NCBI GenBank assembly: GCA_002257025.1
Contig: NCHA01000007.1
Coordinates: 62,001-126,000, forward strand
Length of the DNA: 64,000 nt
Reading direction: 5' to 3'
DNA from: Sphingobacteriales bacterium 16-39-50
GTDB taxonomy: Bacteria; Bacteroidota; Bacteroidia; Sphingobacteriales; Sphingobacteriaceae
The notes beneath the pieces are model-generated. The model ran no database searches. It saw only the letters and a list, made by a program, of their open reading frames with translations, and was not told the DNA's origin. Position numbers and translations under genes: made by a program. Shown piece after piece: positions 5,667-26,414 of this stretch; positions within the stretch are counted from its first letter, which is position 1, and each line of letters starts with the position of its first letter.

Positions 5667-5690
5667 TTAATGTTATCTAAAATTTTTAAG

Positions 5691-7344: not shown

Positions 7345-8643
7345 ATGAAGCGTAGAGAACTTATTAAATACCTCTCAGTTTTGCCGGTTTCCGGAGCTGT
7401 AGCAGGTGCTGTTTTGCCATTCCAGTCGGTTAAGGCTGAAGAGATGCCGGATTTTAAGCCAGAATTTCAATCAGGACCAAAACGGCTTGCAGCAATTATC
7501 ACTGAATATCGACCGAATTCACATGCCGATGTAATTATCGGAAAATACCTGGAAGGTTTTAATCAGGATCAAATGGCACCTTACCCTGATTCAAAGATCG
7601 TTTCGATGTTTACTGAACAGGTTCCTGATAATGATATGAGTCGCCCATTAGCTAAGAAATACAATGTTCCAATCTTTAGAACAGTAGCAGATGCCTTGAC
7701 CTTAGGCGGTAATCAGCTTGCTGTTGATGGAGTTATACTTATCGGTGAACATGGAGTTTATCCTATGAATGACAAGGAGCAAAAACTGTATCCTAGATTT
7801 GAAATGTTTTTGAAGATTACTGATGTATTCCGTCAGTATAAGAAATCAGTCCCGGTATTCAATGATAAACATCTTTCATGGAGCTGGAGACAGGCCAAGC
7901 GCATGGTCGAGATTTCCAAAGAATTGAAATTTCCGATGTTAGCGGGATCTACTATTCCTGTTTCCTTGCGTATTCCTGCTGTAGATACTCCTTATGGTGC
8001 AAAACAAAAATACGCTGTTGGAATTTCATTCAGCGGACTTGATATTTATGGTTTTCACTTACTCGACGGATTGCAGGCGGTAGTTGAAAGAAGGAAGGGC
8101 GGTGAAACAGGTGTTCGTGCAGTCCAATGTCTTGAAGGACAGGATTGCTGGAACTATATTGACCAGAATGAATGGGTAAAACGGCTTTTTGATCAGGCAA
8201 TTTCACACAGTGAAACGCGGGTGGCAGGCGATATGAGGGAATTAGTTAAAAAACCTGCAGTATTTATTATCGATTATAATGATGGGCTGAAGGCTGCTGC
8301 ATTTCTGCTTACCGGTCTGCTTCAGGACTTTACTTATGCTGTCGATATCGAAGGCCAGCAAAAGCCATTTTCTACACTCATGAAATTACAGGCCGGAAAG
8401 CCGCATTATCATTTCGGTTGCCTTGTTAAAAATATGGAGATCATGTTCAAGACAGGTAAGGCTCCATACCCGGTTGAGCGCACTATGCTTAGCAGTGGTA
8501 TCTTGGATTTTGCACTTGAATCCCGTATCTTGGGATATAAAATATTGGAAACACCTGAATTGTCACGGGTGCGTTACCTCAGCTCTCCTGAATCGCATTT
8601 TTTTAGCAAAGGATGGGACAAAAATGGGAAGCGATTAGACTGA
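7345..8643 (+). CDS. Tat-exported protein of unrecognised family (paralogue A)
   Basis: I cannot name a function. The protein has 432 residues with a twin-arginine signal (MKRRELIKYL then a hydrophobic stretch ending near AEA-like sites, about 1-32). Conserved blocks shared with the genes at 20824 and 22269 include NSHADVI, DALTLGGNQLAVD, IGEHGVYP, SVPVFNDKHLS, LAGSTIPV, YGFHLLDGLQ, VERRKGGETGV and a late LSSGILD. The alternating N-terminal pattern could be a Rossmann-like fold of the Gfo/Idh/MocA kind, but no clear dinucleotide motif is visible. The conserved GEHG and DKHLS blocks could be active-site or metal positions. It is first in the enzyme run after the susD terminator. Confidence 0.85.
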   Translation: MKRRELIKYLSVLPVSGAVAGAVLPFQSVKAEEMPDFKPEFQSGPKRLAAIITEYRPNSHADVIIGKYLEGFNQDQMAPYPDSKIVSMFTEQVPDNDMSRPLAKKYNVPIFRTVADALTLGGNQLAVDGVILIGEHGVYPMNDKEQKLYPRFEMFLKITDVFRQYKKSVPVFNDKHLSWSWRQAKRMVEISKELKFPMLAGSTIPVSLRIPAVDTPYGAKQKYAVGISFSGLDIYGFHLLDGLQAVVERRKGGETGVRAVQCLEGQDCWNYIDQNEWVKRLFDQAISHSETRVAGDMRELVKKPAVFIIDYNDGLKAAAFLLTGLLQDFTYAVDIEGQQKPFSTLMKLQAGKPHYHFGCLVKNMEIMFKTGKAPYPVERTMLSSGILDFALESRILGYKILETPELSRVRYLSSPESHFFSKGWDKNGKRLD

Positions 8644-8729
8644 TAATAGTTCGGATTATTCCGTTAAACTGGTAGTATTTAATTTATTTCAATTATCAAA
8701 TTCATAAACATTTAGAATCACCAATTAAA

Positions 8730-9983
8730 ATGAGGAAGCTCTGTATTTTCTTTGTAAGTATCCTGTTACCGATTGCGCTTTTTGCTCAAACAAAACCTTA
8801 CAATATTATCATTAAAGGCGGGCATGTTATTGATCCCAAAAATAACATAAACCGTGTTATGGATGTGGCTATTAAAGATGGAAAGATCGCAAAAGTGGCA
8901 TCAAGCATTGATGCTTCTGAGGCAAGTAATGTGGTCAATGCTTCAGGAATGTATGTAACCCCGGGTTTGATTGATATCCACGGTCATGTTTTTGCAGGAA
9001 CAGAGCCGAACCATATGTATAGCAATGGGTTTAACAGCGTAATGCCGGACGGTTTTTATCAGCGTGTAGGAGTAACAACTGTTGTTGATGCCGGTGGATC
9101 GGGCTGGAGAGATTTCCAGACTTTTAAAACAAATATTATAGATAATTCTCAAACGCGCGTATTAGCATTCCTGAATATCGTTGGTAATGGTATGCGGGGT
9201 GGAGTGATTGAGCAAAATACCACTGATATGGATCCACAGGTAGCTGCAAAGGCAGCTCTGGCTTATAAAGAGCATGTTGTGGGAATAAAAGTTGCGCATT
9301 TTACAAGCCCTGATTTTACGAATGTTGATCGTGGAGTCGCTGCAGGTAAATTAGCAAATATGCCGGTTATGATCGATTTTGGGGGAACAAAACCACGTCT
9401 TTCCCTATATTCTCTTTTAATGGAACGTTTACGTCCCGGAGATATCTTTACCCATACTTTTGGTGAATTACTTGATACAAAAGAGGCTATTGTTGATACA
9501 GCAAAACAAGCTTTAAAGCCTTTCGTAATGGCAGCTCAGAAGAGAGGAGTCATTTTTGATGTTGGTTACGGTGGCTCTAGCTTCAGATATTCTCAGGCGA
9601 TTCCAGCTGCAAAAGCCGGTTTCCACCCGAATACAATCAGTACAGATTTACATATCAGCAGTATGAAGGGTTCAATGAAGGACATGTTATTGGTAATGTC
9701 TAAGTTCCTGAAATTAGGAATGGATCTTCCTGCGGTTATTAATGCGAGCACCTGGGCTCCGGCTAAGGCCATTAATCGTCCACAGTTGGGTCATCTTACA
9801 GAAGGTGCTATCGCAGATGTCGCCATTCTTGGGATGAGGAAAGGAAAATTTGGTTTTTATGACATGCAGGGCTTTAAAATGGATAGCGATGAAAAGCTCG
9901 AATGTGAAATGACCATATTCGGAGGTAAAATTGTTTATGACCTTAACGGAATCGTAAACCCGCTTCCCGACCTTACTAAATAA
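8730..9983 (+). CDS. Exported amidohydrolase / deacetylase-like metallohydrolase (copy 1)
   Basis: Amidohydrolase-superfamily enzyme of 417 residues with a Sec signal peptide (MRKLCIFF to LFAQ, about 1-20). It belongs to the dihydroorotase-like deacetylase group that hydrolyses N-acyl amino compounds. The expected metal ligands are visible: the HxH of DIHGHVF (about residue 81), a Lys in VVGIKVAHF (about 190, candidate carboxylated Lys), the HTF His near 240 and the STDLH Asp/His near 304. The urease-like beta-sandwich flanks the barrel (IKGGHVIDPKNN at the start, GAIADVAIL at the end). A SelA-like PLP gene follows, repeating the pairing seen at 11352-13851. Periplasmic N-deacylation is the likely role; the substrate is unknown. 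Confidence 0.9.
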   Translation: MRKLCIFFVSILLPIALFAQTKPYNIIIKGGHVIDPKNNINRVMDVAIKDGKIAKVASSIDASEASNVVNASGMYVTPGLIDIHGHVFAGTEPNHMYSNGFNSVMPDGFYQRVGVTTVVDAGGSGWRDFQTFKTNIIDNSQTRVLAFLNIVGNGMRGGVIEQNTTDMDPQVAAKAALAYKEHVVGIKVAHFTSPDFTNVDRGVAAGKLANMPVMIDFGGTKPRLSLYSLLMERLRPGDIFTHTFGELLDTKEAIVDTAKQALKPFVMAAQKRGVIFDVGYGGSSFRYSQAIPAAKAGFHPNTISTDLHISSMKGSMKDMLLVMSKFLKLGMDLPAVINASTWAPAKAINRPQLGHLTEGAIADVAILGMRKGKFGFYDMQGFKMDSDEKLECEMTIFGGKIVYDLNGIVNPLPDLTK

Positions 9984-10006
9984 TGAGTAATTATATTATC
10001 GAATAA

Positions 10007-11218
10007 ATGAAGCGCAGGGAAATTCTCAAAACCTTAACCATGTTGCCGCTTGCAGGCGCAATAGGGAATTCAGGTTCATTGGTGACTCCTGCCCAGGCAG
10101 CACCTGCATCAAAGCGCGATTTGTTTAAGGAGTTTGGGATACGAACTTTCATAAATGCCTCGGGGTATTTTACCAGTCTTAGCGGATCACTGATGCAACC
10201 TGATGCAGCTGATGCAATACGTGAAACTGCAACTTCTTTTTGCAGACTTGAAGAGGTGCAGGATAAAGTGGGAGAAAGGATTGCCAGTCTGTTACATGCT
10301 GAGTCGGCCATGGTCACCGCTGGTGCATTTTCTGCCCTGATGCTTGGAATGGCGGGAGTACTTAGTGGAACCGACCAAAAGAAGGTTTCTCAAATCCCCA
10401 GACTTGAGGGCTCAGGAATGAAGACTGAAGTGATCCTGCAGAAGGCTCATAATGATGGTTATGCTCATGCCCTGACCAATTGTGGTGTGAAATTGATCAC
10501 TATTGAAACAGTAGAAGACTTGGAGAAGGCAATCAGCGAAAAGACTGCCATGATGTATTTTATAAATTATCAGTCTTCTCTGGGTAAAATACAGCATAAA
10601 GAATGGCTTGAGCTTGCCAGAAAGCACCGTATACCAACCATGATCGATATGGCTGCTGATCTTCCACCCAAGGAAAATTTATGGAAGTTTCATGATATGG
10701 GTTTTGATCTGGTTTGTGTTTCAGGAGGTAAATTTATGCGGGGGCCTCAAAGCACCGGAATCCTGAGCGGAAAGAAAGAACTTATTGCTGCGGCCAGAAT
10801 GAGTGCCCCTCCACGAGGATCAAATATTGGCCGTGGAATGAAGGTGAATAAAGAAGAAATATTTGGTTTATATATAGCTTTGGAACATTTTATCAATACA
10901 GATCAGGAAAAGGAATGGAAAATGCTGGAGGACAGAATAGCTGTCATTTCGAAAGAAGCTGCATCTGTTCCCGGAGTAAAGGCCGAATTGATTCCTCTGC
11001 CATTGATTAATCGTATTCCTACCCTGAATATTTCATGGGATAAATCAAAGATAAAACTGGAAAATCTGGCTGCAGTCCTGAGGAATGGGAATCCGTCTAT
11101 AGAGGTTATGGGCGGTCCGGGTGGAAGCATTAATGTAACATCCCATATGCTGAAAAAGGATGAGGTAAAAATTGTAGCATCAAGAATAAGGGAGGAGCTT
11201 TTCAAATCATTGATTTAG
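10007..11218 (+). CDS. Tat-exported SelA/DgaE-like PLP-dependent enzyme (copy 1)
   Basis: Fold-type I PLP enzyme of 403 residues related to selenocysteine synthase SelA and D-glucosaminate-6-phosphate ammonia-lyase DgaE. The Schiff-base Lys is K242 in VSGGKFMRGPQSTGIL, and the cofactor Asp lies in TMIDMAADLPP. The N-terminus carries a twin-arginine signal (MKRREILKTL, hydrophobic stretch, AQAA), so it is predicted to fold with PLP in the cytoplasm and then be exported. It starts 23 bp after the amidohydrolase. Related lyases remove ammonia from 2-amino acids or amino-sugar acids; that activity here is inferred. An exported PLP enzyme is uncommon. Confidence 0.9.
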   Translation: MKRREILKTLTMLPLAGAIGNSGSLVTPAQAAPASKRDLFKEFGIRTFINASGYFTSLSGSLMQPDAADAIRETATSFCRLEEVQDKVGERIASLLHAESAMVTAGAFSALMLGMAGVLSGTDQKKVSQIPRLEGSGMKTEVILQKAHNDGYAHALTNCGVKLITIETVEDLEKAISEKTAMMYFINYQSSLGKIQHKEWLELARKHRIPTMIDMAADLPPKENLWKFHDMGFDLVCVSGGKFMRGPQSTGILSGKKELIAAARMSAPPRGSNIGRGMKVNKEEIFGLYIALEHFINTDQEKEWKMLEDRIAVISKEAASVPGVKAELIPLPLINRIPTLNISWDKSKIKLENLAAVLRNGNPSIEVMGGPGGSINVTSHMLKKDEVKIVASRIREELFKSLI

Positions 11219-11351
11219 GAACTAGTTCCCAAAAACAGCTTTTCTAATTTTTGTTTTTCGTAAACAGAGCCTTAAACTTTATAAATATTGAATTTTATAA
11301 TCCTTCCTCTAATCAGGAATGATAAATAATTAATAATAAATAATCTCAATA

Positions 11352-12572
11352 ATGAAACGCAGAGAAATTTTAAAATCCCTCACCCTGCTTCCGCTGGCTG
11401 GTGGGATCACAGCGACAGCTGCACCACTGAATAACATGCTTTCTGCTCCAGCAGCGGGCCGTGACCTGTTCAAAGAGCTGGGTATCCGAACTTTTATAAA
11501 CGCCGCAGGCAATTATACAGTTATGTCGGGTTGCCTTATGCCACCTGAAGTTATGGAAGCAATTAATGGAGCATCAAAGAAATTTGCACTTGTTGATGAT
11601 GTGCAGGAGAAGGTGGGTGAACGGATTGCACAAATGTGCCATGCCGAAGCCGCATTGGTATCTGCAGGTTGCTGGTCGGCATTGATGCTGGGTATGGCAG
11701 GTGTACTGACAGGAATGGATTCAAAGAGAGTTAGTCAGGTTCCAAATCTTGCAGGAACCGGAATGAAATCGGAAGTGATTCTTCAAAAGAGTCATTCGAT
11801 GGGTTATGATCATGCCCTGACCCAGGCTGGAGTAAAGCTGATCAAAGTCGAAACCCGGGCAGAAGTTGAGGCTGCAATCAATGAGAATACGGCTATGCTT
11901 TGGTTTTTGAACCGAGAAGTTCATGTAGGTCAGATCAAGCATGCAGAATGGCTTGAATTAGGTAAAAAGTATAATCTTCCAACAATGATTGATATTGCTG
12001 CAGACGTACCACCTGTTGAAAACCTTTGGAAGTTCAATGATATGGGCTTTGATCTGGTTGTAATTTCGGGAGGCAAGGCAATGCGCGGTCCGCAGAGTGC
12101 TGGAATTTTAATGGGTAAGAAGAAGTATGTTGATGCGGCTCGTCTGAGCAATAACCCAAGAGGTGGTATTGGTCGCGGACAAAAGGTAAATAAGGAAGAA
12201 GTATTTGGCATGTATGCTGCTCTGGAACGTTTTATCAACCTGGATCATAAAAAGGAATGGGAAATGTGGGAAAGAAAAATTGCCTACATAGCGGGTGTTA
12301 TTAAGTCTATTCCGGGTGTTACAACAGGAACCCATATTCCGGCGACAGAAGATAATAAAATGCCTACTCTTAAAGTTACCTGGGACCCTAATAAAATTAA
12401 GCTAACGAATGTTGAAATGGGAGAACGTCTTCGCAAGGGAAACCCTTCCGTAGAGGTAATTTCCTGGGAAGCACCTAATACCCTCCGTTGCGGCATGCAT
12501 GTTCTTGAAGCAGGAGAAGAAAGAATTGTGGCAAGTCGTTTAAAGGAAGAACTATTGAAGGCTTCAGTATAA
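11352..12572 (+). CDS. Tat-exported SelA/DgaE-like PLP-dependent enzyme (copy 2)
   Basis: Second paralogue, 406 residues, with the same layout: twin-arginine signal (MKRREILKSL, about 1-35), the FKELGIRTFINAAG block that opens the mature enzyme, and PLP Lys K242 in ISGGKAMRGPQSAGIL. It shares the TMIDIAAD cofactor region with its neighbours. It is followed 25 bp later by the second amidohydrolase, so it mirrors the pair at 8730-11218 in reversed order. The C-terminal region differs most between copies (here a Cys, RCGMHV, replaces the NVTSHM segment of copy 1), which suggests different substrate preferences. Confidence 0.9.
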   Translation: MKRREILKSLTLLPLAGGITATAAPLNNMLSAPAAGRDLFKELGIRTFINAAGNYTVMSGCLMPPEVMEAINGASKKFALVDDVQEKVGERIAQMCHAEAALVSAGCWSALMLGMAGVLTGMDSKRVSQVPNLAGTGMKSEVILQKSHSMGYDHALTQAGVKLIKVETRAEVEAAINENTAMLWFLNREVHVGQIKHAEWLELGKKYNLPTMIDIAADVPPVENLWKFNDMGFDLVVISGGKAMRGPQSAGILMGKKKYVDAARLSNNPRGGIGRGQKVNKEEVFGMYAALERFINLDHKKEWEMWERKIAYIAGVIKSIPGVTTGTHIPATEDNKMPTLKVTWDPNKIKLTNVEMGERLRKGNPSVEVISWEAPNTLRCGMHVLEAGEERIVASRLKEELLKASV

Positions 12573-12597
12573 ATCAAAAAATCAAAAATCAATAAAA

Positions 12598-13851
12598 ATG
12601 CAAAAACGTTATTTCTTATTAGCAGCGCTATATTTACTCACTAGTTTTTCAGTTCAGGCACAGACTTATCAAACCTTGCTGAAAGGCGGGCATCTTATCG
12701 ATGCAAAAAACAACATTAACAAAGTAATGGATGTGGCCATTCAGGATGGTAAAATCGCAGCAGTTGCCGCCAATATAGATCCTAAAATGGCGAAACAGGT
12801 GATTGATATCACCGGAAAATATGTAACCCCCGGATTGATCGATATTCACGGACACGTTTTTGCGGGTACTGATCCTGATGGTCAACTTGAAAATGGATTT
12901 TCATCACTCCCTGCTGACGGATTTACCTTCCGGGTGGGTGTAACAACAATCGTTGATTGTGGTGATTCAGGAGCTGAGACTTTTGAACTATTCAAGAAAA
13001 ATGTTATTGACAAATCCCAAACCCGTGTTCTCGCATTTTTAAATATTTCCAGAAAGGGAATGTATGGCAGTGAATTCTCTCTGGAGCAGCAAAATAATAG
13101 TTTTTTTGATCCAGTGCTGGCCGCAGATGTAGCCAAACATTACAGTGAATATATTGTAGGATTTAAGGTAGCACACTATCACAAATCTGATTGGGTTGCC
13201 GTAGACAGAACAGTTGAAGCAGGAAAACTTGCCAATAAGCCAATTATGGTTGATTTTGGAGGAGCGATCCCGAGATTATCCCTAGAAGAACTTTTCCTTA
13301 GAAAAATGCGTCCGGGTGATATTTTTACACATACTTACGGACAAATAATCAAAACAAAGGAGACTATTGTAGATCTTGAAACAAAGAAATTATATCCGCA
13401 TGTCCTCGAAGCAAGGAAAAGAGGAATCATTTTTGACGTAGGTCATGGTGGTGGAAGTTTTACTTTTTCACAAGCTATACCAGCAACTCAGCAGGGATTC
13501 TTCCCGGAAACAATCAGTACAGACTTGCACACCGGTAGCATGAACTCTGCTATGAAGGATCAATTGAATGTGATGTCTAAATTTATGGCTCTTAATATGC
13601 CTTTGGCAGATGTAGTTAAAGCCAGTACCTGGTCTGCAGCAAAAGCAATTAACCATGAAGAGTTGGGGCATCTTTCAGTTGGAGCAATTGCCGACATTAC
13701 TGTATTGAATCTTCGGGAAGGTAAATTTGGATTCTATGATGTTGCCAGGTTCAAAAAAGAAGGAAAAAATTTACTTGAATGCGAAATGACCATTAAAGAT
13801 GGAAAGATCATGTATGACCTGAATGCATTGTCTTTTCCAATGGCTAAATAA
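12598..13851 (+). CDS. Exported amidohydrolase / deacetylase-like metallohydrolase (copy 2)
   Basis: Paralogue of the enzyme at 8730, with the same length (417 residues) and ligand set: DIHGHVF (HxH), FKVAHYH Lys, IFTHTYG His, and TDLHTG Asp/His. A Sec signal peptide is clear (LTSFSVQAQ cleavage region, about residue 21). Copies 1 and 2 differ most in the loop after the second strand (about residues 95-150), which in the family shapes the acyl-group pocket. Likely job: periplasmic deacylation of an N-acyl compound, feeding the neighbouring PLP enzymes. Copy 2 sits directly before the two RidA genes. Confidence 0.9.
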   Translation: MQKRYFLLAALYLLTSFSVQAQTYQTLLKGGHLIDAKNNINKVMDVAIQDGKIAAVAANIDPKMAKQVIDITGKYVTPGLIDIHGHVFAGTDPDGQLENGFSSLPADGFTFRVGVTTIVDCGDSGAETFELFKKNVIDKSQTRVLAFLNISRKGMYGSEFSLEQQNNSFFDPVLAADVAKHYSEYIVGFKVAHYHKSDWVAVDRTVEAGKLANKPIMVDFGGAIPRLSLEELFLRKMRPGDIFTHTYGQIIKTKETIVDLETKKLYPHVLEARKRGIIFDVGHGGGSFTFSQAIPATQQGFFPETISTDLHTGSMNSAMKDQLNVMSKFMALNMPLADVVKASTWSAAKAINHEELGHLSVGAIADITVLNLREGKFGFYDVARFKKEGKNLLECEMTIKDGKIMYDLNALSFPMAK

Positions 13852-13911
13852 GCCCAGCCACTTGTACAATTGAAAATTTAATCTTTTATAAATAATATAT
13901 TTTTATACAAC

Positions 13912-14457
13912 ATGAAAAAACAAATCACATTTATACTTTTTATACTGTTGGCAAGTGTTCTTGTTTTCAACTCTGTTAAAGCTCAATCTGTTGCTAAAGA
14001 TCCTGAAACCAGGATCAAAGAACTGGGGATAAAGTTAAGGACTCCAGGCCCACCTTCAGCGAATTTTTTGGGAGCAGTCAGAGTTGGAAATCTGGTATTT
14101 CTTTCGGGACAGGGTCCACTGAAGGAAGATGGAAAATTTATGATTGGGAAAGTTGGTAAAGAGTTCAACTTCGAAGAGGCAAAATATGCTGCCCGTTTAA
14201 CAGGAATAAGCTTATTGGAATCATTAAAAGCTGAAGTAGGTAATCTGAATAATGTGAAGCGGATTGTAAAGGTTTTGGGTATGGTGAATGCAGTACCGGA
14301 ATTCGATAATCACTCTCAGGTAATCAACGGATTTTCTGACCTGATGGTTGAAGTATTTGGTGAAAATGGTAAACATGCGCGCTCAGCGATAGGATTGGGG
14401 TCATTACCGAGAAATATTCCGGTTGAGATTGAGATGATCGTTGAAATGAAAGACTGA
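13912..14457 (+). CDS. Exported RidA/YjgF-family protein (copy 1)
   Basis: RidA proteins hydrolyse reactive enamine/imine intermediates released by PLP enzymes to keto acids plus ammonia. This 181-residue protein belongs to the longer YjgF_endoribonuc-type branch (opening ETRIKELGIKL, VFLSGQGPL, ending VEIEMIVE). The conserved carboxylate-binding Arg is R157 in HARSAIGLGSLP. Unlike ordinary cytosolic RidA it starts with a Sec signal peptide (MKKQITFILFILLAS to VKAQ, about 1-25). Together with the exported PLP enzymes on both sides, this implies enamine chemistry in the periplasm. Confidence 0.92.
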   Translation: MKKQITFILFILLASVLVFNSVKAQSVAKDPETRIKELGIKLRTPGPPSANFLGAVRVGNLVFLSGQGPLKEDGKFMIGKVGKEFNFEEAKYAARLTGISLLESLKAEVGNLNNVKRIVKVLGMVNAVPEFDNHSQVINGFSDLMVEVFGENGKHARSAIGLGSLPRNIPVEIEMIVEMKD

Positions 14458-14483
14458 TTTTTCTTTAGCATAAATATGATCAC

Positions 14484-15032
14484 TTGAAAAAACAAATCAC
14501 ATTTATTCTTCTATTGTTATTAGTAGGTGTTTTCGGAATAAATTCTGTTAAGGCACAAGCTTTGGTAGCAGATCCTGAAACAAGAATCCATGAACTTGGT
14601 ATCAAGTTAAGGACTCGTGGAGGGAGTTCATCCGGGAGTTTTATTGGAGCTGTTAGGGTGGGTAATTTGGTATATCTTTCGGGTCAGGGTCCATTAATTG
14701 AGAATGGTAAATATATAATTGGTAAAGTTGGTAAGGATCTCAATTTTGAGGAAGCCAAAAATGCTGCCCGTTTAACAGGTATTAGTATGTTGGAAGCCCT
14801 GAAAGCCAATGTTGGTAATCTGAATAATGTGAAGCGAATTGTAAAAGTTTTGGGTATGGTGAATGCTGTTCCTGAATTTGATGAGCACTCTCAGGTGATC
14901 AATGGATTTTCTGATCTGATGGTTGAGGTGTTTGGAGAGAATGGCAAACATGCACGTTCAGCGATTGGACTGGGATCATTACCCAGAAATATCCCGGTAG
15001 AGGTTGAGATGATTGTAGAAATGAAGGATTGA
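14484..15032 (+). CDS. Exported RidA/YjgF-family protein (copy 2, tandem duplicate)
   Basis: Near-identical tandem copy of the preceding gene, 182 residues, with the same signal peptide type (ending SVKAQ) and Arg R158 in HARSAIG. The start is TTG at 14484, where copy 1 uses ATG in the same sequence context (following bases AAAAAACAAATCACATTTAT are shared), so translation may be weaker. Differences cluster just after the signal peptide (RTRGGSSSGSF against RTPGPPSANF). Copy number of two beside three PLP enzymes may reflect dose or hetero-oligomers. Confidence 0.92.
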   Translation: MKKQITFILLLLLVGVFGINSVKAQALVADPETRIHELGIKLRTRGGSSSGSFIGAVRVGNLVYLSGQGPLIENGKYIIGKVGKDLNFEEAKNAARLTGISMLEALKANVGNLNNVKRIVKVLGMVNAVPEFDEHSQVINGFSDLMVEVFGENGKHARSAIGLGSLPRNIPVEVEMIVEMKD

Positions 15033-15059
15033 TTTTTAATATTTAAAAAAATTATAAAT

Positions 15060-16295: not shown

Positions 16296-16329
16296 TTTTT
16301 TTTAATCAAGTTTTATCTTATCCGATACG

Positions 16330-17439: not shown

Positions 17440-17479
17440 ATCCTGAATTTTTGAATTTTTAATATTAGAATACAATATC

Positions 17480-18949: not shown

Positions 18950-18980
18950 CATACAAGATAATATTTTAATAAATAATTAA

Positions 18981-19004
18981 ATTCTTTCTCATTTGAGAAA
19001 GAAT
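18981..19004. other. Perfect inverted repeat between mlrC-like and ggt-like genes
   Basis: ATTCTTTCTC and its exact complement are separated by ATTT (10-bp arms, 4-nt loop). It lacks a long T-run on the plus strand, so it is either a weak terminator, an mRNA stability stem or an operator. I cannot decide from sequence. Confidence 0.5.
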
Positions 19005-19022
19005 AATTTAAACTGATTTATA

Positions 19023-20822
19023 ATGAACAGACAGGTGATTAACAAAAGCAGAAGCAAAGCAGCTTTTCTGATCTTTGGATTGGCATTTTTACTAATCCTT
19101 CAGAATCTGCAGGTACATGCTCAGGCAGCAAAAGATAATCTGCGTCCTGCAGCGCTTGGAAAGAATGGTATGATTGCGACCGCAAATCCGCTCGCAACGC
19201 TTGCAGGCCAGAAGATTTTAGTGAAAGGTGGAAATGCAATCGATGCCATTGTTGCAGCGGCCGCTTCCCTTAATGCTGCAGAACCTTATATGTCTGGTAC
19301 TGCTGGTGTGGGGTATATGTTATTCTACTCTGCAAAAGAAAACAGGGTCAGATCTCTGGTTTTTGGAGGCTGGGTTCCTGAAACTTTCAGAATCACAAAA
19401 TTTAAAACAGATGTTAAAGTTGCAGATGGTGCCGGTCATGGTGCTATGGAAAGTATAGGGCCAAGAATTGCCTCTGTTCCCGGGAATCTTGCTGGCTGGG
19501 CAAAGGCATTGAAAGATTACGGAACAATGCCGCTTTCTGAAGTATTCGAAAGTGCAATTGACTATCTTGAAAATGGGGTTCCAATCACCGAATTTGATCA
19601 GGCAATGTGGGCAGGAACTGTAAAGAGGATTGCTCCTCATGCTGAATCAAGAAAGATTTTCTTTAAGAATGATAAAGATCCGTTCGTAATCGGTGATTAT
19701 TTTACAAACAAGCCTCTGGCAAAAACGATGAGAAGGATTGCAAGTGAAGGGATTGATGTTTTTTACAAAGGAGAGATTGCCAAAGAAATGGCTGCGGCAT
19801 TTGCCCGTGATGGAGGTTTTATCACTGAAAAAGACCTGGCTTCAGTTCCTGATAAAGTACAGTGGGTCGATCCTATCTCTATTAAATACCGGGATTATAC
19901 AGTTTACAATAACCCCCCTCCGGGAATGGGTCTCCAGCAGCTACAAACGTTGAAGATCATGGAAGGTTTTGATCTGCAAAAGATGGGACATAACAGCGTG
20001 GACTATCTGGCACATTTGCTTGAGGCGGTTAATTTGAGCAGAATTGATTCTGATAAATATATTGGTGACCCGAAATTCGTTAATGTTCCCGTGGATATGT
20101 TGCTTTCTGATGCATATATAAACAAACAACGTGAAAAGGTTATTGCTAAAGTGAAAGAAAGAAAAGCCGGATTAAAGCCTGAGACTTCTCAAAACATTAG
20201 CCCGGATGCAGTTGACGATCCTAATGCAGCCAAATACAGATACGCAACAACAAGTCTGTCAGCAGTTGATAAATGGGGTAATGCAGTGGTAATTATTCAG
20301 ACTCACGGCGGAGGATTTGGATCAGGTTATGTTGCAGGAAATACCGGTGTGGTATTTAACAGTGCATTGGATTGGATGACACTGGAGCCGGGTAAAGCAA
20401 ATACTGTTGCTCCAGGCAAAGCTGTTGGGTGGTGTATAGGTGGGATGATGCAATTTCATAAGGACGGCAAACCTCAGTTAATTGTAGGTTCACCTGGTAG
20501 TTTCGGTATTTTACAATCTGTTCCTCAGGTTGCTATGAATAACATAGACTTTGGAATGAACATTCAGGATGCGATCAGTGCACCCCGCTTCAGGTGGAAA
20601 GATGAATTGGGATCAGTACCGGCAAAGGAAATTATTATGGAAACCAGGGTACAACCAGGTGTTATCAAAACCTTAAGAGGAATGGGATATGTGATAGATA
20701 CGAGCCTGGGCGATTGGTCAATGACTGTAGGAGGAGCTCAGGGAATTACCATTGACCATAAAACAGGCTGGCTTATGGGTGGTGCAGATCTGAGAAGGAA
20801 TGGTTATGCAGTAGGCTGGTAG
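19023..20822 (+). CDS. Exported gamma-glutamyltransferase-like Ntn hydrolase
   Basis: Self-processing Ntn-hydrolase of 599 residues with an N-terminal signal peptide (hydrophobic core about 14-30, VHAQ). The catalytic/autoprocessing Thr is T409 in YATTSLSAVD, followed by the family's GNAVVIIQT and GFGSGYVAGNTG blocks. The large-subunit start GMIATANPLAT and GGNAIDAIVAAA is typical. Two deviations stand out: the usual TTH at the nucleophile reads TTS, and the DFREMAP-like segment that supplies the gamma-glutamyl-binding Arg in E. coli GGT reads VFGGWVPE (about 111-118) with no Arg. It may hydrolyse another amide; calling it a true glutathione enzyme would be unsafe. Confidence 0.88.
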   Translation: MNRQVINKSRSKAAFLIFGLAFLLILQNLQVHAQAAKDNLRPAALGKNGMIATANPLATLAGQKILVKGGNAIDAIVAAAASLNAAEPYMSGTAGVGYMLFYSAKENRVRSLVFGGWVPETFRITKFKTDVKVADGAGHGAMESIGPRIASVPGNLAGWAKALKDYGTMPLSEVFESAIDYLENGVPITEFDQAMWAGTVKRIAPHAESRKIFFKNDKDPFVIGDYFTNKPLAKTMRRIASEGIDVFYKGEIAKEMAAAFARDGGFITEKDLASVPDKVQWVDPISIKYRDYTVYNNPPPGMGLQQLQTLKIMEGFDLQKMGHNSVDYLAHLLEAVNLSRIDSDKYIGDPKFVNVPVDMLLSDAYINKQREKVIAKVKERKAGLKPETSQNISPDAVDDPNAAKYRYATTSLSAVDKWGNAVVIIQTHGGGFGSGYVAGNTGVVFNSALDWMTLEPGKANTVAPGKAVGWCIGGMMQFHKDGKPQLIVGSPGSFGILQSVPQVAMNNIDFGMNIQDAISAPRFRWKDELGSVPAKEIIMETRVQPGVIKTLRGMGYVIDTSLGDWSMTVGGAQGITIDHKTGWLMGGADLRRNGYAVGW

Positions 20823-20823
20823 T

Positions 20824-22188
20824 ATGAAGCCAGGACAAAATACCCCACGTAGAGATTTTTTAAAGAAATCTTTATTCACAGCTGCCGGAATGAGTGTAAT
20901 TCCTGGCTTTTTACATGGTAAAGATGGACAAATTACTTCTGTGACAGATCAGATGTCAAGAGCATTGGCAGGTAAGGATGGGATTAAGAATATTGCATTT
21001 ATTACCCATATATATAGAAACAGTGCTCATGCAGATGTCATTGGAACCAAACTATTTCTTGGCATTCCTATGGATGAAGGTATGGTAACTCCTCAGGTAA
21101 AAATAGTTTCTGTATATATTGAACAGATTGGGGCAAATGATACCGGCGTTAGAATCGCAAAAATGAACGGTGCTACAGTTTATAATTCAGTTGAAGATGC
21201 ATTAACTCTAGGTGGTGATAAACTTGCTGTAGATGCTGTAGTCTACATCGGTGAGCATGGCGAATATCCCTATAACAGATTAGGCATGAAGCTATATCCT
21301 CGTATGAATTACCTTGAAAGGATATTCAGAGTTTTTGATGCATCTAAAAGATCAGTACCTGTATTTACCGATAAGGCACTATCTTACAGTTGGTTAGATA
21401 GTAAATGGATATACGATCGGGCGAAGGAGTTGGATGTACCAATGATGGCAGGATCCTCTCTGACCTATTGCTGGAGAGATAAACCATTAGTTCATCCCAT
21501 TGGTGTCAAAATATCTGATGCGGTTGCCATTGGCTATGCCTCATTGGATGCATACGGTTTCCACGCAACTGAAATTCTACAATGTATGGTTGAGCGAAGA
21601 GCAGGTGGCGAAACTGGTGTGAAAAGTGTTGAAGGTTTGAAAGGAGATGAGGTATGGAAGGCTATGGATGACGGTAGAATTTCTCAAAAGGTAGTTGATG
21701 CTGCTTGTGATGCTATCAAGGGTAAGGCTAGCGGGAATATGCGCGAGATTGTGAAAACACCTTATGCTGTCATTATCAATTATTTAGATGGTACTAAAGG
21801 AGCAATCATGATGCTCGATAAATATGTTAATTCTGGCTGGGCTTATGCTGCAAAGACTTCAAATGGATTGGTTGCGACTGAAATTGTGGGTGATAATAGC
21901 ATGAGTTACTCTCACTTTAGTTATCTCGCATTGAATATTCAAAAGTTTATAGTGAGTGGACCTATCGCTCCAATTGAAAGGAATTTACTGACAAGCGGGA
22001 TTATAGACATGGGAATACGTTCACTCTTAGAAGGTAAAGTCAAAGAGACTCCTTTTCTGAAAATTAAATATTCAGCAGCAGGATATGAACCAATCAGGCC
22101 AACATCACCCAAGCCAATTGGTCAAAGTATTGGCCCTTGGCCTCCAAAGGGATACGAATTTATTATTCCTGATGCCTTTAAGAAATAG
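20824..22188 (+). CDS. Tat-exported protein of unrecognised family (paralogue B)
   Basis: 454 residues, canonical twin-arginine signal (PRRDFLKKS, hydrophobic AAGMSVIPGF). It shares the ADVIGTKLFL, LTLGGDKLAVDAV, IGEHGEYPYN, VPVFTDKALSYSW, MAGSSL, YGFHATEILQCM and ERRAGGETGV blocks with the other copies. It begins one base after the ggt-like stop, so translation is probably coupled. Compared with paralogue A, the DKHLS block reads DKALS, losing its His, while GEHGEYP is kept. I do not recognise a characterised family. Confidence 0.85.
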   Translation: MKPGQNTPRRDFLKKSLFTAAGMSVIPGFLHGKDGQITSVTDQMSRALAGKDGIKNIAFITHIYRNSAHADVIGTKLFLGIPMDEGMVTPQVKIVSVYIEQIGANDTGVRIAKMNGATVYNSVEDALTLGGDKLAVDAVVYIGEHGEYPYNRLGMKLYPRMNYLERIFRVFDASKRSVPVFTDKALSYSWLDSKWIYDRAKELDVPMMAGSSLTYCWRDKPLVHPIGVKISDAVAIGYASLDAYGFHATEILQCMVERRAGGETGVKSVEGLKGDEVWKAMDDGRISQKVVDAACDAIKGKASGNMREIVKTPYAVIINYLDGTKGAIMMLDKYVNSGWAYAAKTSNGLVATEIVGDNSMSYSHFSYLALNIQKFIVSGPIAPIERNLLTSGIIDMGIRSLLEGKVKETPFLKIKYSAAGYEPIRPTSPKPIGQSIGPWPPKGYEFIIPDAFKK

Positions 22189-22268
22189 TAAAATATCAAA
22201 CTCAGGTAAATAGAAGCATCTCTAAAAGGTATTTTAATTTAGAACTAAAATTTAAATCATAATATAAT

Positions 22269-23636
22269 ATGAAATCAGAAAAAAATAATCCACGCAGAGA
22301 TTTTATAAAGAAATCTATGATAGCTGCTGCAGGAATGAGTGTTATCCCGGGCTTTGTACTGGGTGAAAATGGAGAAATCACAGATATAACTGAGCAATTG
22401 TCAAGAGCCCTTGCCGGTCAGGATGGGATTAAGAAAGTTGCATTCATAACCCATATATACAGAAATAGTGCCCATGCTGATGTTATCGGCACCAAACTTT
22501 TTCTTGGTATTCCAACTGATGAGGGGATGGTAGCTCCTCAGATAAAAATTGCTTCGGTATATATTGAGCAGGTTGGTGCGAATGACACAGGTATCAGAAT
22601 CGCGAATATGAATAATACGCCGGTCTATCCCACAGTTGAAGAAGCTTTAACCCTTGGTGGAGATAAACTTGCTGTTGATGCAGTGATTTATGTGGGTGAA
22701 CATGGTGAATATCCTTATAACCGATTGGGAATGAAATTATATCCACGTATGAATTACCTTGAAAGGATATTCAGGGTATTTGATGCATCTAAAAGATCCG
22801 TACCTGTATTTACTGATAAGGCATTATCTTACAGTTGGTTAGATGCAAAATGGATATATGACCGTTCAAAAGAATTAAATGTTCCAATGATGGCAGGATC
22901 TTCTTTACCTTATTGCTGGAGAGATCCGAATCTGGTTCATCCTATAGGTGTTAAAATATCTGAAGCAGTGGCAATTGGTTATGCATCATTGGATGCTTAT
23001 GGATTTCACGTTACTGAAATTCTACAATGTATGATAGAACGGAGAGCAGGTGGTGAAACCGGTGTTAAAAGTGTGGAGGGCTTAAAAGGAGATGATGTAT
23101 GGAAAGCGATTGACTCAGGTAAGATTTCACAGAAGTTGGTTGATGCAGCTTGTGATGCCATAAAGGATAAGATGAGCGGGAATATGCGTGAGATTGTTCC
23201 TATACCTTATGCTGTTATTGTTAATTATAATGATGGAACAAAAGGTGCAATCCTGATGCTCGACAAATATGTCAAGACAGGCTGGGCATATTCTGCAAAG
23301 ACCTCAAAAGGAATTGTTGCGTCTGATTTTGTACTTGCTGGCGGTCCCAATTACGCTCATTTTAGTTATCTGACTTTAAACATTCAGAAATTTATTGTAA
23401 GTGGGCCTGTCGCACCGATTGAGCGAAATTTATTGACAAGTGGAATCATTGATATGGGAATACGTTCACTTGAAGAAGGTAAAGTAAAGCTGACACCTTT
23501 TTTAGATGTTAAATATTCTGCAGCCGGATATGAGTCGATCAGGCCTACTGCTCCACGTCCAACAGGACAAAGTATTAGTCGTTTTCACCCTAAAGAATAT
23601 GAGTTTATGATTCCGGATGCATTTAAGAACAAATGA
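22269..23636 (+). CDS. Tat-exported protein of unrecognised family (paralogue C, tandem with B)
   Basis: 455 residues and very similar to the gene just upstream, clearly a recent tandem duplicate. It has the same Tat signal (PRRDFIKKS), the same GEHGEYP and DKALS blocks and the same closing LLTSGIIDMGIRSL region. Differences are scattered conservative changes plus a variable stretch before YAHFSYL (residues near 355). The stop codon lies inside a 22-bp perfect tandem repeat (23633-23676). Function unknown; three copies in one locus imply an important step. Confidence 0.85.
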   Translation: MKSEKNNPRRDFIKKSMIAAAGMSVIPGFVLGENGEITDITEQLSRALAGQDGIKKVAFITHIYRNSAHADVIGTKLFLGIPTDEGMVAPQIKIASVYIEQVGANDTGIRIANMNNTPVYPTVEEALTLGGDKLAVDAVIYVGEHGEYPYNRLGMKLYPRMNYLERIFRVFDASKRSVPVFTDKALSYSWLDAKWIYDRSKELNVPMMAGSSLPYCWRDPNLVHPIGVKISEAVAIGYASLDAYGFHVTEILQCMIERRAGGETGVKSVEGLKGDDVWKAIDSGKISQKLVDAACDAIKDKMSGNMREIVPIPYAVIVNYNDGTKGAILMLDKYVKTGWAYSAKTSKGIVASDFVLAGGPNYAHFSYLTLNIQKFIVSGPVAPIERNLLTSGIIDMGIRSLEEGKVKLTPFLDVKYSAAGYESIRPTAPRPTGQSISRFHPKEYEFMIPDAFKNK

Positions 23637-23676
23637 TAGTCATTTCGTGAAAATATGATAGTCATTTCGTGAAAAT
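23633..23676. repeat. 22-bp perfect tandem duplication over a stop codon
   Basis: Two head-to-tail copies of a 22-bp unit (ATGATAGTCATTTCGTGAAA plus AT), 23633-23654 and 23655-23676. The first copy contains the TGA that ends paralogue C. The duplication leaves the protein unchanged and looks recent. Confidence 0.9.
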
Positions 23677-23808
23677 TTATTTAATCAGCTGATACTTTTT
23701 TTAAAATATACCAGAAATAATACGTGTTTAATTTGGAAAATCAGTAAAAAGTCAAGAATATGCATCGTATTTAAACAACACCCAATTTAAAAGCAAAATT
23801 CAATAAAA

Positions 23809-25581
23809 ATGAAAGTCAATTTTAAAAACTTATACGGGACTAATCTTCGCACAAAGCTAACTGCTTTTTTAGGTCTGGCATTTCTGATCACGATCAGTTT
23901 TATTAACTCAGGAGGGCCGGGTGGACTACCACAGGGTGATCCTGATAATGGCGGACTTGCACTTCCCGGCGATTTTGAGGCGGTTGTAGTTGCTGATTCT
24001 CTCGGCCGTGCAAGACATCTTGCAGTTAATAAGAATGGAGATATTTATGTTAAATTAAGAGTGCCTGATGCCCAAAAACGTGGTAGTGTTGCCTTAAGAG
24101 ACAATAATAACGATGGTAAAGCAGATATCATTGAGTATTTCGGAAGCTATCCTGATACCGGAAATTATGGAACTGCTATGCGTATTCATAAAGGTTATCT
24201 GTATTTCAGTACTGCCGGCGAGGTTTTAAGAACCAAGCTGACTCCGGGAAAATTAGTTCCTGAAGGTAAAACAGAAACTATTGTTGTTGATAATTATAAA
24301 AGGGGAAAATATTCTCATATAGCAAAGCCAATTGCCTTTGATAATAAAGGAAACATGTATGTTCCATTTGGTTCCCCAAGTGATGTTTGCCAGATTGCAG
24401 ATAGACAACCCGGCTCTATGGGTCAAATGCCTTGCCCTGAATTGAAAGAGCATGCTGGTGTTTGGAAATTCAGTGAGAGTAAATTAAACCAGAAGCAAAG
24501 TGACGGTACCATGTATGCTACAGGTATTCGCAGTATTGTAGGTATGGCATGGAATAAAGTGGATAACTCTTTGTATGCAATGCAGCATGGTCGTGATGAT
24601 TTTTCCAGAACATGGTCAAATCTTTACACTTCATGGCATAGCGCTTTATTACCTTCTGAAGAGTTTCTGAAAGTTCCTGAAGGTTCTGATTCTGGTTGGC
24701 CATACTACTATTATGATTTTATGCAGGGTAAAAAATTATTAAACCCTGAATACGGTGGTGATGGTAAAAAAGAAGGTGATGCCGCTAAATACAATATGCC
24801 AATTATTGGATTCCCGGGCCACTTTGCTCCAAACGATTTACTTTTCTATACCGGAAATCAATTCCCTGAGCGTTATAAAAACGGAGCATTTGTAGCTTTC
24901 CATGGCTCCACTATTCGTGCGCCATATCCTCAGGGAGGTTATTGTGTAGCCTTTGTTCCATTTATAAATGGTAAATTTTCAAGTGAATGGGAATTATTTG
25001 CTGATGGATTTGGTGGGGTAGATACAATCGTTTACACTTCTGATGCTAAATACCGCCCGATGGGTCTTGCACAAGGTCCTGATGGATCTCTTTACATGAA
25101 TGATAGTGAGAAAGGAAAGATTTGGAGAGTAATGTTCAAAGGTGATAAGAAAAAATTTGGTACCAGCCAGCTTGCTGGAATGGCAGCCCGTAAATTAACT
25201 TCACCAAATGTTAAAAGTCCAGACTTCGATAAAGATAATTTGATGAAAGGTCAATTGGTTGCAGGTGCAAAATTATATAATACCTATTGTGCATCATGTC
25301 ATCAGCAGAATGGCAAAGGTGATGGAACACGTTTCCCTCCGGTAGCAGAATCTGAGTGGGTAAATGGCGATAGAAGAAAGTTAATTGAATTAGTACTTAA
25401 CGGTCTTTCAGGTCCAATTACGGTTAAAGGTGTTGGATATAATGAAGCAATGCCTCCTCATGGTTATCTTAAGGATACTGAAATCGCACAGATATTAACT
25501 TATGTCAGGTCCAGCTTTGGAAATAACTCAAGTGCAATCACCCCAAATGAAGTGTCCAGATATCGCGCCAGACGACAATAG
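23809..25581 (+). CDS. Periplasmic sorbosone/PQQ-type sugar dehydrogenase fused to cytochrome c
   Basis: 590 residues with a signal-anchor or signal peptide (AFLGLAFLITISF, about 19-33). A beta-propeller of the glucose/sorbosone dehydrogenase kind covers about 45-450 (GDFEAVVVADSLGRARHLAV, TGIRSIVGMAWN, YRPMGLAQGPDGSLYM). A C-terminal class I cytochrome c domain carries one heme motif, CASCH (about 494-498), and a later Met in EAMPPHGYL as candidate axial ligand. The fusion suggests oxidation of an alcohol or aldehyde with electrons passed to the respiratory chain. PQQ use is family-based and not proven for this subgroup. Confidence 0.88.
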   Translation: MKVNFKNLYGTNLRTKLTAFLGLAFLITISFINSGGPGGLPQGDPDNGGLALPGDFEAVVVADSLGRARHLAVNKNGDIYVKLRVPDAQKRGSVALRDNNNDGKADIIEYFGSYPDTGNYGTAMRIHKGYLYFSTAGEVLRTKLTPGKLVPEGKTETIVVDNYKRGKYSHIAKPIAFDNKGNMYVPFGSPSDVCQIADRQPGSMGQMPCPELKEHAGVWKFSESKLNQKQSDGTMYATGIRSIVGMAWNKVDNSLYAMQHGRDDFSRTWSNLYTSWHSALLPSEEFLKVPEGSDSGWPYYYYDFMQGKKLLNPEYGGDGKKEGDAAKYNMPIIGFPGHFAPNDLLFYTGNQFPERYKNGAFVAFHGSTIRAPYPQGGYCVAFVPFINGKFSSEWELFADGFGGVDTIVYTSDAKYRPMGLAQGPDGSLYMNDSEKGKIWRVMFKGDKKKFGTSQLAGMAARKLTSPNVKSPDFDKDNLMKGQLVAGAKLYNTYCASCHQQNGKGDGTRFPPVAESEWVNGDRRKLIELVLNGLSGPITVKGVGYNEAMPPHGYLKDTEIAQILTYVRSSFGNNSSAITPNEVSRYRARRQ

Positions 25582-25594
25582 ATAAATATAGAGC

Positions 25595-26386
25595 ATGAAA
25601 TTTATCACCTATCTGTTATTTATATCTCTGTCTTTCTTAATGAAAGGCGGAGATATTCTTTCTTCTGAGAAGCCAGGCTTATCTTCAGCATCTGCTTCTC
25701 AAACAAAGCCGGCTGAAGATAAAAAGTATAAGGTTTCTAAATTGAAGGGGGCTTTAACCATTAATGCAGACTGGAATAAGGCACAATGGAAGAATATAGA
25801 AACGATTAAAATCGAAAACTATATGGGTACAATTCCACCGTTTAAACCAACGGTTGAAGCCAAAATGATGTATGATAATGATAACGTTTATGTGATCTTT
25901 CGTGTTAAAGACCGTTTTGTTAAAAGTGTAGTGCAGGAGTATAATGGCAATGTGTCGGGCGATTCCTGTGTAGAATTTTTCTTCGCTCCTGATTCTTCGC
26001 TCCCATTAAGTTATTTCAATCTGGAAATTAATGCCGGAGGTACACCTTTGATTTTTTATATTAAACATCCTTATCCTGCAACACCTTATGTAAAACTTCA
26101 AGCAAGTGAAATTGAAGAAATTGAAATTGCACATTCTTTACCATCAAAGGTTGATCCTGAGATTACAGAACCGGTAACCTGGACCATTGAATACAGAATC
26201 CCTTTGTCAATGTTGGCTAAATTCTCAAATGTTAGCCGTCCTGCACCGGGTGTAGTTTGGAAAGCCAATTTTTATAAAACAGGAAGCAGGACATCAAATC
26301 CGAATTATATTACCTGGAATGTAGTGGATAATCCCAGACCGAATTTTCATCTTCCCCAGTTTTTCGGAACATTGATATTCCAGTAA
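25595..26386 (+). CDS. CBM9-like exported protein
   Basis: 263 residues with an N-terminal hydrophobic signal (MKFITYLLFISLSFLMKG). The body matches the carbohydrate-binding family 9-like fold: LTINADWNKAQW near the start, AKMMYDNDNVYVIFRVKD, DSCVEFFFAPD and a late NFYKTG/ITWN segment. Such stand-alone proteins often accompany periplasmic dehydrogenases or heme proteins. It starts 13 bp after the dehydrogenase/cytochrome gene, so a partnership is likely. Binding to an actual carbohydrate is not shown. Confidence 0.82.
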   Translation: MKFITYLLFISLSFLMKGGDILSSEKPGLSSASASQTKPAEDKKYKVSKLKGALTINADWNKAQWKNIETIKIENYMGTIPPFKPTVEAKMMYDNDNVYVIFRVKDRFVKSVVQEYNGNVSGDSCVEFFFAPDSSLPLSYFNLEINAGGTPLIFYIKHPYPATPYVKLQASEIEEIEIAHSLPSKVDPEITEPVTWTIEYRIPLSMLAKFSNVSRPAPGVVWKANFYKTGSRTSNPNYITWNVVDNPRPNFHLPQFFGTLIFQ

Positions 26387-26414
26387 TTTATCGATTGTGC
26401 CCGGTTTAAATGAG

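Follow-up and report, generated by a model that had tools for sequence, protein, structure and literature searches.

A SusCD-headed operon of export-signalled enzymes in a Sphingobacteriales genome as a candidate periplasmic route for N-acylated amino-sugar acids

The window analysed here, a stretch of 64,000 nucleotides from contig NCHA01000007.1 of Sphingobacteriales bacterium 16-39-50, a member of the Bacteroidota with a genome of 4.1 Mb, contains an operon headed by SusC- and SusD-type genes in which N-terminal export signals are present in 13 of the 15 open reading frames (ORFs) between positions 7345 and 26386. We consider it moderately probable that these export-signalled enzymes deacylate and deaminate N-acylated amino-sugar acids in the periplasm and that a BASS-family carrier imports the resulting keto acid. 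What the sequences show directly is gene content, export-type signals, conservation and the catalytic residues kept or lost; the reactions themselves, what they act on, which way the carrier works and what the Gfo-like, GGT-like and M81 proteins do are all inferred.

In the route that we favour, the SusCD pair would bring the substrate across the outer membrane, a fusion of a GSDH-like domain with cytochrome c may oxidise the sugar, and amidohydrolases of the EF_0837 type would remove the N-acyl group. Lyases dependent on pyridoxal phosphate (PLP), carried out folded and with PLP bound by the twin-arginine translocation (Tat) system, would eliminate water from a 2-amino-3-hydroxy acid and release an enamine, which RidA would convert into a 2-keto-3-deoxy acid and ammonia. 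The BASS carrier would import this acid. The minimal operons of relatives additionally encode an exported aldolase of the RraA type, which could split the keto-deoxy acid already outside the inner membrane.

Export signals and layout of the operon

A preliminary description of this DNA had counted at least eleven export-signalled products between 7345 and 26386; the thirteen that it listed were correct, the figure of eleven was too low, and the cluster itself is confirmed, its families being backed by the Pfam and NCBIfam profile searches with which we assigned the window proteins. Six ORFs begin with twin-arginine signals (those at 7345, 10007, 11352, 15060, 20824 and 22269) and seven with Sec-like signals (8730, 12598, 13912, 14484, 19023, 23809 and 25595). 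The other two encode a membrane protein, the BASS carrier (16330), and the M81 protein (17480), which lacks a signal. TatC is encoded in the host genome.

The signals recur in orthologues, where they were counted after removal of identical proteins; before that step some genes entered the tallies twice through the overlap of L012 with L064 and of L005 with L059 (L numbers denote related stretches and G numbers genomes). A Tat-type signal is present in 82 of 84 distinct PLP lyases and an RR pair lies within the first 35 residues in 83 of them, a search result that may slightly favour signalled relatives because the lyase profile spans the signal region. Export signals of any kind were found in 88 of 89 distinct amidohydrolases (83 of them Sec-type), 26 of 29 members of the Sec-type RidA class to which the window's belong, all 24 of a second, Tat-type RidA class (22 Tat, 2 Sec-like) and all 23 exported RraA proteins. 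Three neighbouring cytosolic enzymes taken as a comparison had none (0/7, 0/7 and 0/5; 0/19 together), and the sigma factors and FecR proteins gave 0/26 and 1/29. The classifier is rough, as it flagged 3 of 6 cytosolic neighbours of the short-chain dehydrogenase/reductase (SDR) family and 116 of 182 other ORFs of at least 200 amino acids in the same stretches, the latter including true exported and membrane proteins.

To our knowledge exported PLP enzymes are few. PvdN and PtaA, which are exported folded by Tat and act in the maturation of the siderophore pyoverdine, provide a precedent for Tat export of such enzymes, and PvdN must bind PLP in the cytoplasm before transport (PMC6206403). Their siderophore role would also suit an explanation in which the exported enzymes act on amines of the envelope or the medium, to detoxify or modify them, with neither a catabolic chain nor keto-acid uptake; against this, SusCD and a carrier lie within the same operons and the kinase DgoK and an aldolase follow in paralogous loci, and we regard it as very improbable.

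The operon-like array comprises 23 genes on the + strand from 228 to 32437, with intergenic gaps of 1-172 bases in the ORF listing. Genes for a sigma factor, FecR, SusC and SusD precede the 15 of 7345-26386, all likewise on the + strand, and four enzymes without a clear signal follow:

228..785, +, extracytoplasmic-function (ECF)-type sigma factor, regulatory gene of the SusCD system (Sigma70_r4_2, E 2.7e-9)
883..2061, +, FecR-type anti-sigma factor (PF04773, E 2.8e-19)
2154..5666, +, SusC-type TonB-dependent outer-membrane transporter (PF07715 plug domain, E 2.4e-21; SusD next)
5670..7244, +, SusD-like outer-membrane lipoprotein (SusD-like_2, E 6.4e-80; lipobox-type signal)
7345..8643, +, U1, Tat-type protein of predicted Gfo/Idh/MocA fold without glycine motif (twin-arginine signal)
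8730..9983, +, AH1, Sec-type exported amidohydrolase/deacetylase of the PRK09237/EF_0837 group (NF006689, 434.8 bits, passing the cut-off of 371)
10007..11218, +, PLP1, Tat-type DgaE/SelA-related PLP lyase (TIGR01437, E 3.4e-48, below cut-off; twin-arginine signal)
11352..12572, +, PLP2, Tat-type DgaE/SelA-related PLP lyase (TIGR01437, E 8.7e-48, below cut-off)
12598..13851, +, AH2, Sec-type exported amidohydrolase (NF006689, 421.4 bits, passing the cut-off of 371; 57% identity with AH1)
13912..14457, +, RidA1, Sec-type exported Rid-family enamine/imine hydrolase-like protein (PF14588, E 2.4e-14)
14484..15032, +, RidA2, Sec-type exported Rid-family protein (PF14588, E 9.6e-16)
15060..16295, +, PLP3, Tat-type DgaE/SelA-related PLP lyase (TIGR01437, E 9e-49, below cut-off; twin-arginine signal)
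16330..17439, +, BASS-family sodium symporter, candidate keto-acid importer (PF01758, E 6.4e-36; PanS model, E 4.5e-53, below cut-off)
17480..18949, +, M81 (MlrC-like) metallohydrolase without export signal (PF07364, E 2.4e-92)
19023..20822, +, GGT-fold Ntn-hydrolase with Sec-type signal, gamma-glutamyl pocket lost (PF01019, E 1.9e-115)
20824..22188, +, U2, Tat-type protein of predicted Gfo/Idh/MocA fold
22269..23636, +, U3, paralogue of U2 (81% identity; twin-arginine signal)
23809..25581, +, fusion of a GSDH-like domain with cytochrome c, candidate periplasmic sugar dehydrogenase (PF07995, E 1.2e-10; PF00034, E 4.1e-11)
25595..26386, +, CBM9-like exported protein (PF16011, E 1.4e-33)
26397..27344, +, cytosolic 3-hydroxyacyl-CoA-dehydrogenase-type enzyme (PF02737, E 3.3e-55; no clear signal)
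27420..28724, +, cytosolic class-III aminotransferase, GSA-aminomutase-like (PF00202, E 7.8e-64; no signal)
28794..31628, +, cytosolic FAD-linked oxidase with a 4Fe-4S domain, GlcD/D-2-hydroxyacid type (PF02913, E 5.1e-51; no signal)
31670..32437, +, cytosolic SDR, 3-hydroxybutyrate-dehydrogenase-like (TIGR01963, 337.7 bits, cut-off 307.05)

The four enzymes of 26397-32437 also trail exported genes in Pedobacter and Daejeonella loci. The locus is part of a larger island that includes L181, the 17 kb immediately before the window, which encodes three long lyase relatives (553, 550 and at least 526 amino acids) with MKRR N-termini, two Tat-type RidA proteins, three Sec amidohydrolases and, about 8 kb upstream of the window start, a PIG-L deacetylase whose N-terminus was judged by eye to be of the twin-arginine type.

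Catalytic residues of the lyases, amidohydrolases and RidA proteins

The PLP lyases appear, from their sequences, to be distant relatives of DgaE, the D-glucosaminate-6-phosphate ammonia-lyase (DGL): the closest chain in the Protein Data Bank (PDB) to PLP2, whose structure model had a mean confidence (pLDDT) of 82.3, is 7lc0 (E 1.6e-30), and the lyase tree places DgaE outside the exported lyases, at the end of a long branch. A family-score test gave 163-166 and 132-136 bits, with TIGR01437 below its cut-off for PLP1-3. In the alignment to DgaE, the lysine that binds PLP is kept in all 76 distinct lyases of up to 450 amino acids and in the window's three; it corresponds to the catalytic lysine numbered Lys-217 in the DGL study (PMC9529869), which is residue 213 in the letters of the 7lc0 chain. 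Equivalents of the phosphate-binding Arg-301, Arg-332 and Arg-346 are present in 1, 1 and 0 of the 76, position 332 being gapped in 32 rows and position 346 in all 76. This loss fits unphosphorylated substrates, as would be expected of a periplasmic substrate beyond the reach of the cell's kinases. Equivalents of His-162 and His-163 are present in 2 and 1 of the 76, in a loop that is gapped in the alignment and in which L106 has a shifted His pair. According to the DGL study, His-163 protonates the enamine, the H163A variant is still active and releases free enamine, and RidA is named as the type of enzyme that breaks down such enamines (PMC9529869). The absence of His-163 thus fits a need for RidA.

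The amidohydrolases keep what we take to be their metal-ligand set (HxH, Lys, His, Asp), with H84, H86, H242 and D306 in 86/86 sequences and K187 in 85/86, AH1 and AH2 included. The two pass the broader model NF006689 and miss the narrower EF_0837 model TIGR03583 (216.4 and 214.2 bits, cut-off 432.15); a literature search for Atu3266/EF0837 returned nothing. The Rid-family arginine is likewise kept, as Arg157 in 31/31 sequences including RidA1 and RidA2 and as Arg129 in 29/29 of the Tat/lipoprotein type, while both window proteins miss the TIGR00004 cut-off. The exported RraA proteins retain an Arg-Asp pair in 20/22.

RraA is usually regarded as cytosolic. The exported RraA-like proteins are about 310 amino acids long (L103:6409-7338, L105:10883-11824 and L171-L174), with five matches in the window's own genome.

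Recurrence of the gene set and clues to the substrate

The preliminary description had proposed gene-set conservation as a check, and the set does recur, reshuffled, across Bacteroidota. Lyase matches at E <= 1e-60 were found in 5 of 247 genomes of a phylum sample, 42 of 301 of a family sample and 8 of 395 of a class sample, each including the window's own genome. From these matches 51 lyase stretches were picked by hand, several sharing a genome, and compared with 20 control stretches placed at round coordinates in the same genomes. Amidohydrolase was present in 45 of the lyase stretches (0 of the controls), RidA in 36 (1), exported RraA in 22 (0), SusD in 32 (1), BASS in 13 (0) and GSDH-cytochrome in 14 (0). 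Same-strand runs containing the lyase come from 33 genomes of 12 genera, of which 32 have the amidohydrolase in the run, 28 RidA, 20 exported RraA, 12 BASS and 4 a galactonate-type carrier of the major facilitator superfamily (MFS); BASS and the MFS carrier share a run in none of the 33. The order sigma-FecR-SusC-SusD recurs ahead of lyase operons in relatives, and the shortest operon (L112, L116) reads sigma-FecR-SusC-SusD-RidA-lyase-amidohydrolase-RraA-BASS.

A scan with the U proteins over one genome per species (84,980 species) found 303 relatives; the 80 best, from 79 distinct loci, were kept. Among these, at least one of lyase, amidohydrolase, RidA, BASS, M81 and GGT-like genes accompanies U in 24 of the 25 first-listed loci (L005-L029) and in 6 of the 47 loci of L030-L083 not named Bacteroidota, the latter having somewhat less flank (median length 13.3 kb against 19.0 kb). 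Gene order varies among Pedobacter, Parapedobacter, Dyadobacter, Lunatimonas, Membranihabitans and a Balneolaceae genome, which makes the association more than the synteny of close relatives. Taken together, the proposal that deacylation, deamination and enamine hydrolysis occur outside the inner membrane, with import of the keto acid, draws support from this co-location, the signals of the relatives and the kept catalytic residues, as regards its core chemistry and place, with amino-sugar acids as the preferred substrate class.

Paralogous loci, mostly of the window's genus, adjoin keto-deoxy-acid or amino-sugar genes and point to amino-sugar acids as the substrate class for the family of lyase loci. 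In the window's own genome, L099 holds SusC, SusD, a lyase, four amidohydrolases, a Tat-type galactonate-dehydratase-like enzyme and a sulfatase with a C-terminal domain of the N-sulphoglucosamine-sulphohydrolase type (SGSH), and the adjoining L176 encodes a 2-keto-3-deoxygalactonokinase (DgoK; PF05035, E 2.5e-58), an aldolase of the 2-keto-3-deoxy-6-phosphogluconate (KDPG) type, a galactonate-type MFS carrier and an exported RraA. DgoK accompanies the lyase loci of seven own-genus genomes, in the same run in five and in an adjoining stretch in G000 and G344. Another locus of the own genome, L100, has NagB between RidA and lyase as well as N-acylglucosamine-2-epimerase-like genes; NagB occurs in the lyase runs of 2 genomes. 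In L178 the genes for BASS, RraA, lyases and amidohydrolases share their strand with glycerate kinase, 2-hydroxyacid dehydrogenase and KDPG aldolase. In L138 (same genus), GSDH-cytochromes come after U, lyase and amidohydrolase, together with a GH109-like protein whose N-terminus is of the twin-arginine type. An ActP/monocarboxylate-type symporter, just below its model cut-off, adjoins the lyase in L101, L136, L142 and L145, which fits released acetate or pyruvate. Of the two substrate classes that had been left open, the oxidised N-acetylated amino sugar is therefore favoured by DgoK, KDPG aldolase, the galactonate-type carrier, NagB, GH109 and the ActP-type symporter near paralogues.

Several observations weigh against this account. 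The flank of the window locus contains no DgoK, aldolase, NagB or SMP-30 lactonase, so that an amino-sugar acid is a substrate we infer for the window, and the cytosolic genes of 26397-32437 give no pointer to sugar-acid catabolism. The Pfam TAT_signal profile, only 21 positions long, gave four matches at E <= 1e-3 in the whole genome and none in the window. RidA is missing from the lyase run in 5 of the 33 genomes, and 3 of the 29 proteins of its Sec-type class have no signal. The GSDH half of 23809-25581 has no PDB match and a weak Pfam score (E 1.2e-10). Cytosolic lyase relatives from Gemmatimonadota (L042 and L083) also have no His-163, and its loss thus belongs to the subfamily and was not caused by export. 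Finally, L015, L022, L025 and L029 (a stretch of only 5.9 kb) carry mixes of Gfo-like (U), GGT-like (G), M81 (M) and BASS (B) genes without lyase and amidohydrolase, so the window may merge two modules, and in L020 and L023 the lyase has a gene of the S15 peptidase family as a neighbour.

The mixed loci, coded R B G U (L015), G U X M B (L022), G U M (L025) and B M G U (L029), fit an arrangement in which lyase and amidohydrolase would serve amino-sugar acids, the Gfo-like, GGT-like and M81 proteins a second, unrelated amide, and the carrier and RidA both. The shortest Sphingobacteriaceae operons, which have no U, G or M, fit it too, whereas both sets co-occur, at least partly, in window-type loci and in L017, L018, L019, L026 and L027, so that a single longer pathway is possible. 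We give such a division somewhat less than even chances; it is compatible with the periplasmic amino-sugar-acid route and would narrow it.

The S15 genes bear on the other substrate class of the preliminary description, an N-acyl or D-amino-acid peptide. In this reading the locus would break down modified peptides or N-acylated beta-hydroxy (D-)amino acids. A serine- or threonine-like amino acid would be freed by the GGT-like enzyme and the amidohydrolase and would lose its ammonia to the PLP enzyme; RidA would then dispose of the aminoacrylate, leaving pyruvate or 2-ketobutyrate for BASS to import. At the PLP and RidA steps the chemistry would be identical to that of the amino-sugar route, GGT-like (PF01019) and M81 genes lie within the locus, and M19 dipeptidase-type genes occur in L014, L024 and L135. 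On the other hand, the GGT-like enzyme, which passes TIGR00066 (372.9 bits, cut-off 357.85) and keeps its Ntn nucleophile Thr409 in the window and in 21/21 relatives (20 distinct), has all six gamma-glutamyl-pocket positions, presumably R114, N411, Q430, D433, S462 and S463 in E. coli, replaced in the same proteins, and the M81 protein has no signal; for these reasons the peptide reading loses support. In addition, L112 and L116 have no peptidase, paralogues adjoin 2-keto-3-deoxy-acid and amino-sugar genes, and the lyase's closest PDB relative is DgaE. We consider peptide degradation unlikely, with the two S15 loci and the lack of DgoK, aldolase and NagB beside the window locus in its favour. 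Gamma-glutamyl chemistry was rejected for the GGT-like enzyme on account of the lost pocket, and degradation of the microcystin type because 17480-18949, at 120.7 bits against the NF041767 MlrC cut-off of 999, is a member of M81 only.

Beside these loci, an L-lactate permease stands on the opposite strand next to the pair of lyase and ActP-type symporter in L101, L136, L142 and L145, identified by PF02652 in L101 and L136 and by equal length and a similar N-terminus in L142 and L145. The galactonate-dehydratase-like enzyme of the enolase superfamily has a twin-arginine signal in 3/3 cases (L099:15606-16844, L140 and L144) and lies beside a sulfatase, which suggests dehydration of neutral sugar acids, too, outside the cytoplasm.

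Known systems, the U family and further observations

Multi-step carbon catabolism is normally cytoplasmic, and the classical De Ley-Doudoroff and Entner-Doudoroff routes (DgoK, DgoA, galactonate dehydratase) form their keto-deoxy acid in the cytoplasm. They resemble the present system in having a 2-keto-3-deoxy acid as key intermediate, and in the DgoK-type kinase and KDPG-type aldolase found beside paralogous loci. PvdN and PtaA perform single biosynthetic steps with other types of PLP enzyme, and differ in having no catabolic operon with RidA and a carrier. The D-glucosaminate pathway of Salmonella (DgaABCDEF, with DgaE, EC 4.3.1.29) is alike in its SelA-related PLP lyase and in the expected conversion of a 2-amino-3-hydroxy acid into a 2-keto-3-deoxy acid, with an aldolase downstream in some loci. 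DgaE is intracellular and acts on a substrate phosphorylated by the phosphotransferase system (PMC9529869), whereas the window lyases have Tat-type signals, RidA alongside, and neither the phosphate arginines nor His-163.

Another related system is the ong pathway for oxidised chitin in Pseudoalteromonas strain ACAM 620, a marine bacterium, which leads from 2-(acetylamino)-2-deoxy-D-gluconic acid (GlcNAc1A) through 2-amino-2-deoxy-D-gluconic acid (GlcN1A) to 2-keto-3-deoxygluconate (KDG) by way of OngB, OngC and the RidA protein OngD, the last being essential in vivo with a role given there as unknown (PMC9537276). As proposed for the window, a deacetylase, a deaminase and a RidA are encoded together and supplied by way of a TonB-dependent transporter. 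However, OngB and OngC belong to other families and are, like KdgK, cytoplasmic (a prediction for OngB and OngC), and GlcNAc1A itself is imported, through an SSS-family importer (PMC9537276), whereas the window enzymes are export-signalled. Among the titles and abstract openings listed by literature searches, none describes a RidA and a PLP lyase that are both exported and lie side by side, or an operon of this type. The chemistry is known; on this basis the location and the gene set would be new.

If the amino-sugar-acid route holds, it would be an ammonia-eliminating pathway relocated to the periplasm, and a reason for this location might be that reactive enamines are kept away from cytosolic PLP enzymes. 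Here we speculate further that a whole Entner-Doudoroff-type amino-sugar route could run outside the inner membrane, with oxidation to cytochrome c, lactone opening, deacetylation, ammonia elimination by Tat-delivered PLP enzymes releasing a free enamine and hydrolysis of that enamine by a dedicated exported RidA, to which the minimal operons would add aldol cleavage by exported RraA; only pyruvate-like acids would then cross the inner membrane, and the enamines would stay apart from cytosolic PLP enzymes. We hold this wider version to be possible and a little more doubtful than not. The results also give a basis to re-examine 'selenocysteine synthase', 'dihydroorotase' and 'RraA' annotations in Bacteroidota.

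The three Tat proteins that the preliminary description had left as unknown can now be placed: according to structure modelling, the U proteins have a Gfo/Idh/MocA fold. U1, which shares 38% identity with U2, has no Pfam or NCBIfam match. The N-terminal GxGxxG dinucleotide motif was not found in 71 sequences of the U family, which mostly have T-x-Y-R type residues instead. Zymomonas glucose-fructose oxidoreductase (1h6d) keeps NADP and the glycine motif, and the U proteins differ from it in the latter. Profile comparison of the U family with Gfo/Idh/MocA was weak (E 0.017), so that the link rests on the fold, and a proof by sequence was given up for this reason; an earlier motif-based guess that the U proteins are relatives of M81 was dropped when the structure model gave Gfo/Idh/MocA. 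This extends the predicted fold to thousands of proteins that had no name, many of which carry signals of the Tat type. The U family has at least 4234 relatives and no Pfam model, with records from Bacteroidota, Planctomycetota, Acidobacteriota, Gemmatimonadota, Verrucomicrobia, Poribacteria and Chloroflexota. A small exported protein often adjoins the BASS or MFS carrier (L103:4813-5235, L178:6836-7264 and L122-L124); it is a DUF4440 protein in L178 and L124, and the others were so judged by appearance.

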